64,000 nucleotides of DNA from Bacteroidota bacterium (GTDB taxonomy: Bacteria; Bacteroidota; Ignavibacteria; Tepidaquicellales; Tepidaquicellaceae). Below, piece by piece: positions 8,152 through 20,957 of the stretch. The stretch is taken from NCBI GenBank assembly GCA_018266835.1, contig JAFDZP010000004.1, positions 248,001-312,000 of the forward strand. The letters run 5' to 3'. The position numbers were made by a program, and so were the translations under genes. Position 1 is the first letter of the stretch. The number at the start of each line of letters is the position of its first letter. Under the pieces are notes generated by a model. It searched no databases. It saw only the letters and a program-made list of their open reading frames with translations, and was not told the DNA's origin.

Positions 8152-8172
8152 CACTGTGCAGATAAAACAGTG
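8152..8172. promoter_or_regulatory. Inverted repeat CACTGT-N9-ACAGTG ahead of a secreted-protein gene
   Basis: Perfect 6-bp arms at 8152-8157 and 8167-8172, between the regulator stop (8147) and the Shine-Dalgarno GGAGG of the gene at 8213. It could be an operator for the TrmB-type regulator or a small RNA hairpin; nothing here distinguishes these. Confidence 0.4.
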
Positions 8173-8212
8173 TCAAAGTTATAAAATTAATTTTATTTCT
8201 CTCGGAGGATTT

Positions 8213-9019
8213 ATGAAAAAATCGTTCACAATTTTAGCGCTTCTGATAGTCAATCTCGTTTTGTTTAACGGGCTATTAAAAGCAGGAGTTGAAAGTAATA
8301 ATCTTATTATTACAGGCAAAGTATTGTACAAGAATACAACAACACCTGTTCAGAATGCAGTTGTGAAGCTTTATCTGGTAAACTCCGATGAGGTTACTTA
8401 TAAGGTCCTGGAATCCGTTACTGTGAATGATAAGGGTGAGTACATGTTCAACAGTGCCCAGATCGGCAGCGGAGATAAAGTAAGAATAGGCGCATATGTA
8501 AATGATATCATTCAGAATGACAGAATTATAATTAATACAAACCAGAACAACACAGACGAAATTGTAGAACTCGGTGCATATGCAAACGATATTATAATGG
8601 ATAGAATTAATCCATTAAGTGAGATTTACGGTTCAACCATTCTTGTTGATTTAAATGCAGCCGCAGCAAATTCAAAATTCAATTTATACCTCAACGGAAA
8701 TGTTATTGAAAGCACTAACGATTTTATGGATGGCGGCGGAATAGGTACATATCCAAGAGAGCCGATATTAAATCAGAATTATCCGAATCCTTTTAATCCT
8801 ACTACAAATATTAAATACGGCATTCCGCAGCAGGCATTTGTAACATTAAAAGTTTATGATATGTCAGGCAAGCTGGTAGCTGACTTAGTAAATGAAATAA
8901 AAGAACAAGGATATTACACCATAAAGTTTGACGGAAGTAAATTAGCTTCAGGATTCTATCTGTACAGATTAACAGCAGGCGACTATACTACAATTAAGAA
9001 GATGAGCTTGATTAAGTAA
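8213..9019 (+). CDS. Secreted protein with carboxypeptidase-regulatory-like fold and T9SS sorting domain
   Basis: 268 aa from ATG 8213, which is preceded by a strong GGAGG and starts a good signal peptide (MKKSFTILALLIVNLVLF); an upstream in-frame GTG at 8156 lies in the inverted repeat and is rejected. The mature part begins NLIITGKVLYKNTTTPVQNA, a beta-sandwich signature of carboxypeptidase-regulatory or CNA-B-like domains (residues about 30-105). The C-terminal ~80 residues are a T9SS sorting domain (NQNYPNPFNPTTNIKYGIP). Surface or secreted protein of unknown function; not an enzyme as far as can be seen. Confidence 0.85.
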   Translation: MKKSFTILALLIVNLVLFNGLLKAGVESNNLIITGKVLYKNTTTPVQNAVVKLYLVNSDEVTYKVLESVTVNDKGEYMFNSAQIGSGDKVRIGAYVNDIIQNDRIIINTNQNNTDEIVELGAYANDIIMDRINPLSEIYGSTILVDLNAAAANSKFNLYLNGNVIESTNDFMDGGGIGTYPREPILNQNYPNPFNPTTNIKYGIPQQAFVTLKVYDMSGKLVADLVNEIKEQGYYTIKFDGSKLASGFYLYRLTAGDYTTIKKMSLIK

Positions 9020-9057
9020 TGAAACTAAGCTAAAAGAAAAGAGTACAAAAAAGAAAA

Positions 9058-9157
9058 GCCGGATGAGGGCATCCGGCAATTATTAAGAGAACAAAAAATT
9101 CTAACCCGGCAAGGTTAAATCTTTTAAGATGATGAGGCATCCTATTTTCTCTTAATA
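9058..9157 (+). ncRNA. Structured 3'-UTR element with UGAGGG hairpin loops
   Basis: Directly after the gene ending at 9019. A perfect 8-bp hairpin (GCCGGATG 9058-9065 with CATCCGGC 9070-9077) exposes UGAGGG. It is followed by a domain closed by a perfect 10-bp stem, TATTAAGAGA 9081-9090 with TCTCTTAATA 9148-9157. Inside are TAACC/GGTTA (9102-9106 with 9113-9117) and GATG/CATC (9131-9134 with 9138-9141). The sequence GATGAGG(G)CATCC appears in both parts, so alternative pairings are possible. The first hairpin may also end transcription, though no T-run follows. No known riboswitch class was recognised. Confidence 0.5.
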
Positions 9158-9250
9158 GCAAAATAGACAAAAATATTTGAAAATGTAAAGGACAAAACCA
9201 GGACACTCAGTTCTTTACAATACAAGATAAAGAGTTCTTTAAAAGTTTTT

Positions 9251-9700
9251 GGATTGCAGCTTATGAGGGGGCTGCGATTCTACAGGGAGAATAAAGCTAA
9301 CAAGTTTTACCGGAATTCACGGGTTGAGGGGCTTTGTAGTTTTCCATTAAAAGGAATTTCGACTTTGAGGGAAGTTGAAATATCCGAACAGTTAGCGGCT
9401 GTTCTCCCAAGAGTTTTATTAAGTTTTGATTTCACGGAGTTGAGGGGCTTTGTAGAAATCAGCTAAGAAGCGAAAGCTTCTGCACCTGCGTATCAGCTGT
9501 GAGGGGAGTTGATATGTTACGGGTTGGGAGAATCGAAGATTCTCCCACGAGTTTGATGCAGACTTTGTTAAATTCTCGTCTGCCTAACCCACCCGGAGAA
9601 TTTCCAAATCTCCGGGATAAGTTTAGTTGTAAAAATAATGTGTTTTAAACTTTGTTTCCTTTCTCCTTAAGCATCCTGACCTTGTCGGGATGCTTTTTTT
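9251..9700 (+). ncRNA. Putative large non-coding RNA with repeated UGAGGGG hairpin loops
   Basis: No convincing gene occupies this stretch, but stems are dense. Five hairpins expose the same loop: A 9251-9260/9271-9280, B 9312-9323/9332-9345, C 9353-9365/9372-9385, D 9428-9439/9448-9460, E 9489-9498/9507-9516, with loops containing TGAGGG(G) at 9264, 9325, 9366, 9441 and 9500. Stem sequences differ while loops are kept, as in a folded RNA. Others: 9386-9391/9399-9404; a GAAA tetraloop stem 9466-9471/9476-9481; 9526-9533/9539-9546; 9558-9563/9578-9583; 9592-9599/9609-9616; and GGGTT 9521-9525 with AACCC 9586-9590 enclosing two of them. A strong terminator ends it. A possible TTTACA/TTTAAA promoter (9214, 9238) would start transcription near hairpin A. 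It is not RNase P, tmRNA, SRP or 6S RNA. Confidence 0.7.
9669..9700 (+). terminator. Strong rho-independent terminator of the putative ncRNA
   Basis: Stem 9669-9680 with 9684-9695 (AAGCATCCTGAC against GTCGGGATGCTT, one T-G pair), 3-nt loop, followed by eight T residues. Confidence 0.9.
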
Positions 9701-9743
9701 ATTTGTATAAAAATTCAGTAGTATAATAATTAGAGTAAGAACT

Positions 9744-9769
9744 CGTTCCGATGCTCCAGCGTCGGAACG
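9744..9769. repeat. REP-like palindrome (CGTTCCGA ... TCGGAACG)
   Basis: Arms CGTTCCGA 9744-9751 and TCGGAACG 9762-9769, plus GCT/AGC inside, two-base loop. Palindromes of this CGTTCCGA/TCGGAACG kind are dispersed intergenic repeats in many bacteria. No RAYT transposase is in the window. Confidence 0.65.
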
Positions 9770-9796
9770 TAAACCTTAATCGATTCTACTATACCG

Positions 9797-9830
9797 CCCC
9801 CTCAGTCCCCCTCCTTGTAAAGGAGGGGGA
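9797..9830. repeat. Dispersed G/C-rich palindrome TCCCCCTCCTT / AAGGAGGGGGA
   Basis: 11-bp arms 9806-9816 and 9820-9830 with a 3-nt loop; a second copy is at 11795-11817. The flank CCCCCTCA (9797-9804) is complementary to loop A of the upstream RNA, which may be chance. Confidence 0.7.
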
Positions 9831-9924
9831 AGCAAAGTTTTTATTTTGTAAACTTCCATTTCGTTTTTCCTTTATAAGATAATTTATAAACATTAATTTT
9901 GTTTAACACATTAAAACAATTTTA

Positions 9925-10821
9925 ATGAACCTACTCAATAAAGCTTTAGTAAACACCATTCCCGTTCTACCCAGAGGCTTAGTCAGATTTTTTGCAAACA
10001 AATACATCGCAGGCGATAATATAAACGAAGCAGTGAATACCGTTAAGCATCTTAACGAAAAAAAATTCATGGCTACGATGGATGTACTTGGTGAAAGTAT
10101 CAGTTCAAAAGAAGAAGCAATAAAATCAAAAGATGAATCGATTGAAGTACTGGATGCAATAAAGAAAAATAATCTTGATTCCAATTTATCGGTAAAGCTT
10201 ACAATGCTTGGTTTAAAAAATGATTATGATTTATGCAGAAGTTTGTTTACTGAAATTCTTGAGCATGCAAAAAGCCTTAATACATTTGTAAGAATTGATA
10301 TGGAAGAATCTGCAGTGACGGATATAACTATCAAATTGTTCAATGAAATGCGTAAGAAATTTGATAACGTCGGAATTGTACTGCAGGCATATTTAAGAAG
10401 GACTGAAAGCGATATTATAAAACTTACCGAAGAAAAAGTAAACTTCAGAATCTGTAAAGGTATATATATTGAGCCTGAGGAAATTGCATTCAAAGGATAC
10501 GATGAAGTAAGACAGAATTATCTTAAAGTATTACGCCTTGCTCTTGAGCGCGGCGCATACGTAGGTATTGCAACACACGATGATTACTTAATAACCGGTG
10601 CGGAAAAAATTGTTAAAGATTTAAAACTTACAAGAGAGCAATATGAATTTCAGATGCTGCTTGGTGTAAGAGAAAATCTGCGCGATGAAGTTTTAAGCCA
10701 CGGTCATAGAATGAGAATCTATGTTCCGTTCGGTCAGAGATGGTATGAATATTCAATAAGAAGATTTCAGGAAAACCCAAACGTTGCAGGCCAGGTGCTT
10801 AAAAGTATTTTTTCCAATTAA
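9925..10821 (+). CDS. putA: Proline dehydrogenase (monofunctional)
   Basis: 298 aa, the usual length of a stand-alone PRODH. It oxidises proline to delta-1-pyrroline-5-carboxylate with FAD and feeds electrons to the membrane quinone pool. The beta/alpha barrel carries family motifs: VKLTMLGL, FVRIDMEES, a GIVLQAYLRRTESD strand, FRICKGIY, and the C-terminal signature RIYVPFGQRWYEYSIRRFQE with the paired Arg residues that bind the proline carboxylate. No aldehyde dehydrogenase domain is fused and no P5C dehydrogenase lies nearby. It is separated from the upstream RNA by a terminator and has its own 95-bp leader after the dispersed palindrome. Confidence 0.93.
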   Translation: MNLLNKALVNTIPVLPRGLVRFFANKYIAGDNINEAVNTVKHLNEKKFMATMDVLGESISSKEEAIKSKDESIEVLDAIKKNNLDSNLSVKLTMLGLKNDYDLCRSLFTEILEHAKSLNTFVRIDMEESAVTDITIKLFNEMRKKFDNVGIVLQAYLRRTESDIIKLTEEKVNFRICKGIYIEPEEIAFKGYDEVRQNYLKVLRLALERGAYVGIATHDDYLITGAEKIVKDLKLTREQYEFQMLLGVRENLRDEVLSHGHRMRIYVPFGQRWYEYSIRRFQENPNVAGQVLKSIFSN

Positions 10822-20009: not shown

Positions 20010-20957
20010 ATGAAATTACATAAATTATTAGTATTTATGTTAGTTTTCTCCTTAGCTGTAATGACATCACACAAAGTCTTTGCTCAGGATGAACCAACTG
20101 AGATGACCATGGAAGACTGGCAAAAAATGATGGACGAATACACAGCTAAGAAAGATCAGTTAACGATCCAACTTAACAACTTAAACACAGAAATAGACGG
20201 TTTAAAGAAATCAAATGCAGATAAAGATGCAGCTTTAACAAAAGCTGAATCAGATTTATATGCTGCAGTTGGTTCTACAAAATCAGGTGTTGCTGATTAC
20301 AGAAAAGATTTTGAAGCAACAGAAAAAATGATCAACAGCAAATCAGGTAACGTTGCTGATGCTCGTAAAAAATTCGATGCTTTAAAAGCTTCAAAAGTAC
20401 GTTGCTTACCAGAATTCTGGGATAGATTCAACGCAATGGAAAAGAAACTTCTTGATTGGGAAAAACCAGTTGAGCCACCAAAATCAAACAAATACACAGT
20501 TGTAAAAGGTGATTGTTTATGGAAAATTGCCGGTAAAAAAGAAATCTATGGTAACCCAAGAATGTGGCCTGTATTATGGGATGCTAACAAAACAGTTACT
20601 TTAGATCCTAAAGCTCCTAAAAATACAAAGACAAAAATCACCAACCCAAATCTTATTTATCCTGGACAACAGTTAGTAGTTCCTACATTAACTGACAAGA
20701 TGAAAAAAGATGCAATGATGATGAAGAACAAATGGATGAAGAAGAGAACAAAAAAATCTGACACAACCACAGATACAAAGAAAGATGAAAAGAAAGATAT
20801 GAAGAAAGATGAAAAGAAAGATATGAAGAAAGACACAAAGAAAGATGAAAAGAAAGATATGAAGAAAGATGAAAAGAAAGACGTTAAAAAAGATGCACCT
20901 AAAGATGTAAAAAAAGATGCACCTAAAGACGTTAAAAAAGATGAAAAGAAAAAATAA
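20010..20957 (+). CDS. LysM-domain periplasmic protein with Lys/Asp repeat tail (copy 2)
   Basis: 315 aa, paralogue of the gene at 18459. Signal peptide ending near VFAQ, a coiled-coil region to about 155 with RCLPEFWDRFNAMEKKLLDW, then a LysM domain (YTVVKGDCLWKIAGK, IYGNPRMWPVLWDANK, LIYPGQQLVVPTL), then a tail built from KKDEKKDMKKDEKKD and KKDAPKDV units. The Cys cluster at the mature N-terminus of copy 1 is missing. The tail is encoded by a near-perfect 9-30 bp DNA repeat, so its length probably varies between strains. A good Shine-Dalgarno (GGAG near 19996) precedes the ATG. Confidence 0.8.
   Translation: MKLHKLLVFMLVFSLAVMTSHKVFAQDEPTEMTMEDWQKMMDEYTAKKDQLTIQLNNLNTEIDGLKKSNADKDAALTKAESDLYAAVGSTKSGVADYRKDFEATEKMINSKSGNVADARKKFDALKASKVRCLPEFWDRFNAMEKKLLDWEKPVEPPKSNKYTVVKGDCLWKIAGKKEIYGNPRMWPVLWDANKTVTLDPKAPKNTKTKITNPNLIYPGQQLVVPTLTDKMKKDAMMMKNKWMKKRTKKSDTTTDTKKDEKKDMKKDEKKDMKKDTKKDEKKDMKKDEKKDVKKDAPKDVKKDAPKDVKKDEKKK

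Follow-up and report, generated by a model that had tools for sequence, protein, structure and literature searches.

Six hairpins with a common UGAGGG(G) loop in a probable noncoding RNA gene upstream of proline dehydrogenase in a genus of Tepidaquicellaceae

The locus and its hairpins

The region described here lies at positions 9020–9705 of the window, the 64-kb stretch of DNA that was analysed and to which all coordinates refer. It separates the gene for a secreted protein from that for proline dehydrogenase (proDH), with everything on the + strand, and is present as a single copy in the genome. Its features are listed below; the sister species is the only other species of the genus compared (G001).

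Upstream of the RNA region with the secreted-protein gene, + strand: TrmB-type regulator gene
8156–9019, + strand: gene for a secreted protein with a C-terminal sorting tail (PF18962), upstream of the RNA region
9058–9077, + strand: hairpin F, GCCGGAUG-AGGG-CAUCCGGC (in full GCCGGATGAGGGCATCCGGC, perfect), with the sixth TGAGGG (at 9064); identical in the sister species
9082–9156, + strand: upstream domain closed by AUUAAGAGAA/UUCUCUUAAU
9102–9117, + strand: hairpin UAACC/GGUUA within the upstream domain
9128–9141, + strand: mini-hairpin GAUG-AUGAGG-CAUC, a seventh, shorter relative; AAUG-ACGAGG-CAUU in the sister species
9184–9219, + strand: hairpin UGUAAAGG/UCUUUACA with a large variable loop and TTTACA within its 3′ side
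9214–9243, + strand: candidate promoter, TTTACA-18 nt-TTTAAA, conserved in both species
9251–9280, + strand: hairpin A, loop AUGAGGGGG, TGAGGG at 9264; loop and upper stem identical in the sister species
9285–9408, + strand: long-range stem GGGAGAA (9285–9291)/UUCUCCC (9402–9408), enclosing hairpins B and C
9296–9301/9391–9396, + strand: inner stem GCUAAC/GUUAGC inside the 9285–9408 stem, enclosing B and C
9312–9345, + strand: hairpin B, CACGGG-UUGAGGGG-CUUUGUAG, TGAGGG at 9325; identical in the sister species
9353–9385, + strand: hairpin C, CGACUU-UGAGGG-AAGUUG, TGAGGG at 9366
9427–9461, + strand: hairpin D, UGAUUUCACGGAG-UUGAGGGG-CUUUGUAGAAAUCA, TGAGGG at 9441; paralogue of B
9466–9481, + strand: hairpin AGAAGC-GAAA-GCUUCU, stem conserved
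9491–9514, + strand: hairpin E, UAUCAGCU-GUGAGGGG-AGUUGAUA, TGAGGG at 9500; paralogue of C
9486–9523, + strand: hairpin E including its lower CCUG/CGGG stem
9526–9546, + strand: hairpin GGGAGAAUC-GAA-GAUUCUCCC
9558–9583, + strand: stem GCAGAC/GUCUGC
9592–9616, + strand: hairpin CCCGGAGA/UCUCCGGG
9669–9701, + strand: intrinsic terminator, conserved in both species
9925–10821, + strand: proDH (PF01619), downstream of the RNA region

The hexamer TGAGGG occurs six times on the + strand between 9064 and 9505; the + strand of the whole window holds 10 copies, and six of these fall within 442 bases. Six well-spaced copies of any 6-mer were seen in none of 1000 dinucleotide shuffles of the region. When a copy was counted as apical if at least four of its six bases lay in the apical loop of a local fold, all six copies qualified both in the window and in the sister species, against a background of 23% for the 6-mers of the region and 0/4 for the other TGAGGG copies of the window. 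The five hairpins A–E with a nearly common loop that had been read from the sequence alone all exist, at the coordinates listed above. In the full-length ensemble, the mean unpaired probability is 0.65 for the motif G residues and 0.22 for other G residues; the loop of hairpin B is less surely open. In most cases the UGAGGG(G) motif forms a GAGG loop closed by a U-G pair; the loops of the six hairpins read AGGG, AUGAGG(GGG), UUGAGGGG, UGAGGG(A), UUGAGGGG and GUGAGGGG(A).

The sequence-only reading had the region begin at 9251; conservation starts about 200 bases earlier and takes in hairpin F, which lies outside the span first delimited and resembles a terminator on the minus strand. The candidate promoter at 9214–9243 is a weak one, which the consensus promoter scan did not call, and would start the RNA at about 9251. 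At the other end, the strong terminator claimed for the region was found. The predicted fold is better on the + strand (−214 kcal/mol) than on the minus strand (−179 kcal/mol), and the G-U pairs beside the loops of hairpins B and D are possible on the + strand only.

Other repeats were seen in the window. Its strongest 6-mer repeat is AAAGAT, densely repeated at 20451–20900 with up to 12 copies per 450 bases. Just 3′ of the RNA terminator, the stretch 9740–9835 contains a GTTCCGATGCTCCAGCGTCGGAAC hairpin together with a REP/MITE-like element, CGCCCCCTCAGTCCCCCTCC...GGAGGGGG; this stretch is absent or badly aligned in the sister species.

Folding, conservation and internal duplication

Comparison with shuffled sequences bears out the claim of a structured RNA, the folding z-score being about −6 to −7 in both species (−6.8 for 9251–9640, −7.1 for 9040–9705 and −6.2 for the sister species). 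One homologous locus was found, that of the sister species (SZAS-86; JAFDZO010000019.1), which has the same two neighbours and about 80% identity. Identity between the species is 75–88% per 100-base step over 9001–9600 and 46–49% at 9701–9900, in the spacer 3′ of the terminator; the flanking genes align at about 77%. All six TGAGGG copies are conserved in place. Hairpins B and D, which are alike near the loop, are each nearly identical between the species in stem and loop. A GAAA tetraloop had also been pointed out, and it is present in the window at 9466–9481; it is not conserved, the sister species having a different loop on this stem.

Covariation could be checked in two species only. RNAalifold, which is fitted to both sequences at once, gave 165 pairs for the species pair, of which 144 are unchanged, 14 changed on one side and 7 changed on both sides. 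About four stem pairs with both-side changes fall in well-supported helices. In hairpin C of the sister species, G-C is replaced by A-U and U-A by A-U, together with a G-U to A-U change; adjacent pairs of the inner stem 9296–9301/9391–9396 change from U-A to A-U and from A-U to G-C, and one A-U becomes G-U. When the structure was taken from a single species, 6 and 4 pairs changed on both sides, above null means of 2.4 and 2.0 but within the null maximum of 7. Broken pairs in this test number 39 and 29 (null means, 45 and 34), many of the predicted long-range pairs among them. The covariation is modest and, as two sequences cannot yield statistical covariation, we regard it as suggestive. Overall, the local hairpins are well supported; the global fold is tentative.

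The region also contains an internal repeat, in which two segments align with each other:

9310–9416, + strand: module 1, hairpins B and C followed by UUCUCCCAAGAGUUU
9427–9554, + strand: module 2, hairpin D, the GAAGC insert and hairpin E, followed by UUCUCCCACGAGUUU

Module 2 has the extra GAAGC hairpin relative to module 1. Hairpins B and D share TTCACGG(A)GTTGAGGGGCTTTGTAG, and UUCUCCCAmrAGUUU is found in two copies, at 9402–9416 and 9540–9554. A covariance model of the module recovered both copies in both species with scores of 108–138 bits; the next matches, at ≤30 bits (G057, G004, G021 and G001), appear to sit in protein-coding sequence and were set aside. The alignment of the modules indicates that the RNA grew partly by tandem duplication of one two-hairpin module, of which B-C and D-E are the two copies. 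The stems had been described as unlike one another. This is true between the groups A, C/E, B/D and F but not of B versus D, whose upper stems are the same because the module was duplicated.

Coding potential, known RNA classes and distribution

The only sizeable ORF on the + strand, 9254–9466, has a TTG start and is open in both species. Its substitutions are spread over codon positions 1/2/3 as 7/8/10, as against 51/24/150 in proDH, and it has no Pfam match. Lacking both an excess of third-position substitutions and a Pfam match, it was rejected as a small peptide. The region is probably noncoding on this comparison, as the sequence-only reading had held.

That reading had also recognised no known class, and an Rfam 15 search at the gathering threshold gave no match in the 64-kb window; at permissive thresholds nothing credible appeared, the best matches being far below threshold. 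The CsrB/CsrC and RsmX/Y/Z RNAs are among the closest in design: several hairpins present one short purine-rich loop motif in a long noncoding RNA that ends in a terminator, and here 6/6 hairpins carry the same loop motif in both species. The loops differ. In the known family they are ANGGA, and most of the 22 GGA of CsrB are sites for CsrA (PMC7652899); here they are UGAGGG(G), with no GGA in or beside the loop in 4/6 hairpins, C and E alone having a GGA, at the loop edge. CsrA itself (PF02599) was detected in 0/20 genomes, the own genome and 19 relatives, with the Escherichia coli, Bacillus subtilis and Thermotoga maritima controls matched, in agreement with the earlier expectation that the partner would differ from CsrA. 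Membership of the CsrB/RsmZ family fails on these grounds, there being no detected CsrA and no repeated loop GGA. The own genome likewise gave no Hfq (PF17209; five controls matched), which places the RNA outside the Hfq-dependent sRNAs, and no RRM_1 protein was detected in it.

The long RNAs OLE, GOLLD, ROOL, HEARO and raiA of Rfam are also highly structured and intergenic; the present RNA differs in giving no covariance-model match, in its much narrower distribution and in its repeated loops. A CRISPR array was rejected, the stems differing between copies and the spacing being irregular at 41–200 nt. An intramolecular G-quadruplex formed from GGGG loops was also considered; the last G residues mostly pair in the stems.

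Searches for relatives led repeatedly to the same place. Only the sister species was found by blastn in 59 relatives, by the pattern of hairpins B and D in 29 genomes of the family, and by the same pattern in 84,980 species plus viral contigs, where the other matches had no comparable loop cluster. A triple TGAGGG cluster, sought in 294 genomes of the class, and the module covariance model, run against 119 genomes, gave believable matches in the genus's two species only; the other triple-cluster matches listed resemble, as judged by eye, scattered coding sequence, REP-like elements, tandem repeats or CRISPR repeats. No loop cluster lies around proDH in other genera, and plasmid and phage sequences gave no match to the RNA. 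The RNA appears restricted to one genus, as far as these searches can see; homologues that have diverged could have escaped them. We also noticed CRISPR-like arrays in several genomes belonging to one genus of the class, with a repeat that ends in ...GAACCTGTGAGGGATTGAAAC or ...GCACCTGTGAGGGATTGAAAC.

Overall, the locus is probably a noncoding RNA gene of about 450–650 bases, new to description and genus-restricted as far as seen.

Possible functions of the RNA

The best explanation, which we put forward tentatively and at somewhat less than an even chance, is that the RNA acts, in the manner of CsrB, as a multivalent decoy for an RNA-binding protein. It would be read on the + strand and end at the terminator at 9669–9701. 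With a 5′ end at about 9251 its length would be about 450 nt; alternatively, it may be processed from the 3′ part of the secreted-protein transcript, with a more upstream start and a length of about 650 nt. Its six hairpins, including the four (B, C, D and E) of the duplicated module, would display the common UGAGGG(G) loop to several copies of one loop-recognising protein, and the bound protein would be kept from its mRNA targets, as CsrA is by CsrB/RsmZ, the protein here being another one. Transcription, a protein partner and titration are all inferred. Six equal loops on conserved stems, together with a terminator of its own, suggest multivalent binding of one partner, and the earlier proposal of a sponge for a protein is plausible from the anatomy of the RNA. 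Its restricted distribution would be unusual for the titrator of a conserved regulator and counts against the decoy, as do the modest covariation, the tentative global fold and the less surely open loop of hairpin B.

The main rival, which we consider unlikely though by no means fanciful, is a regulator that acts by base pairing, its G-rich loops contacting C-rich CCCCUCA sequences in mRNAs or anti-Shine-Dalgarno sRNAs. Such an RNA would be the mirror image of sRNAs with C-rich loops (sX13, RNAIII and 6C RNA) or resemble the CrfA sponge. Open G-rich loops of 6–7 nt in several copies are suited to kissing contacts, and GAGGGG could pair with the anti-Shine-Dalgarno sequence of 16S rRNA with two G-U pairs. 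The Xanthomonas RNA sX13 acts through three C-rich loops and does not need Hfq (PMC3771888); like the RNAIII-type sRNAs, it repeats one homopolymer-rich motif in several apical loops, as the present RNA does. Those loops are C-rich where the present ones are G-rich, and sX13, at 115 nt, is about four times shorter. CrfA, a sponge of Caulobacter, sequesters four sRNAs with a common anti-Shine-Dalgarno 10-mer (PMC12559287), and the present RNA would be like it if it sequestered C-rich sRNAs of the anti-Shine-Dalgarno type; the likeness would be one of design. The genome here has no detected Hfq, which speaks against the base-pairing reading. Also against it, neither of the two genomes is enriched in the loop complement CCCCTCAA, with 129 sites (52 + 77) against 190 (108 + 82) for the reversed control. 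Moreover, the conservation of hairpins B and D spans their whole stems and exceeds what loop-only base pairing needs. Because of this conservation and the lack of enrichment of the complement, we lean slightly towards a protein rather than an RNA partner.

Among the sites of the complement, an inverted pair CCCCTCAA/TTGAGGGG at G000:C2:4841 was rejected as a candidate, being a terminator after a tRNA 3′ end. This terminator reads CCCCTCAAGAATTAACATCTTGAGGGG-TTTTTTTTTT, and its stem contains the TTGAGGGG word; the word pair recurs at the same distance on contig C5 and in the sister species.

The RNA might instead be a structured 3′ UTR of the secreted-protein gene that protects its mRNA or sets its level and has no function in trans. 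We think this improbable. Gene and RNA are on the same strand and end at one terminator, conservation starts soon after the stop codon, and no strong promoter was found between the two. Protection of an mRNA, however, needs no repeated identical loop, the candidate promoter just before hairpin A is conserved, and secreted proteins with such a sorting tail are common whereas the RNA is not.

Very unlikely, in our estimation, is a functionless remnant or repeat product, such as tandem hairpins of a decayed mobile element or a CRISPR-like array. The duplicate modules B-C and D-E could be read in this way, and other genera of the class have TGAGGG within CRISPR repeats; against this, the RNA is single-copy, has no regular repeat-spacer layout and no plasmid or phage match, changes more slowly than the neighbouring coding genes and conserves all its loops. 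A divergent housekeeping RNA missed by Rfam (RNase P RNA, tmRNA or 6S), similar though it would be in length and complexity, is largely refuted, RNase P RNA (C2:428712–429103) and tmRNA (C1:371847–372202) being encoded elsewhere in the genome, the Rfam searches at gathering and permissive thresholds giving no credible match, and the relatives lacking the present RNA.

A further-reaching form of the decoy reading, in which CsrB-like titration arose on its own in a genus where CsrA, Hfq and RRM proteins are not detectable and the titrated protein recognises the UGAGGG(G) loop, is more doubtful. If the RNA is a decoy, the CsrB design would have come into use a second time, independently and with a different loop code, and the RNA would provide a lead to a global regulator that binds RNA, in bacteria whose known hubs went undetected. 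The RNA also offers a view of growth by duplication of a two-hairpin module within a single genus.
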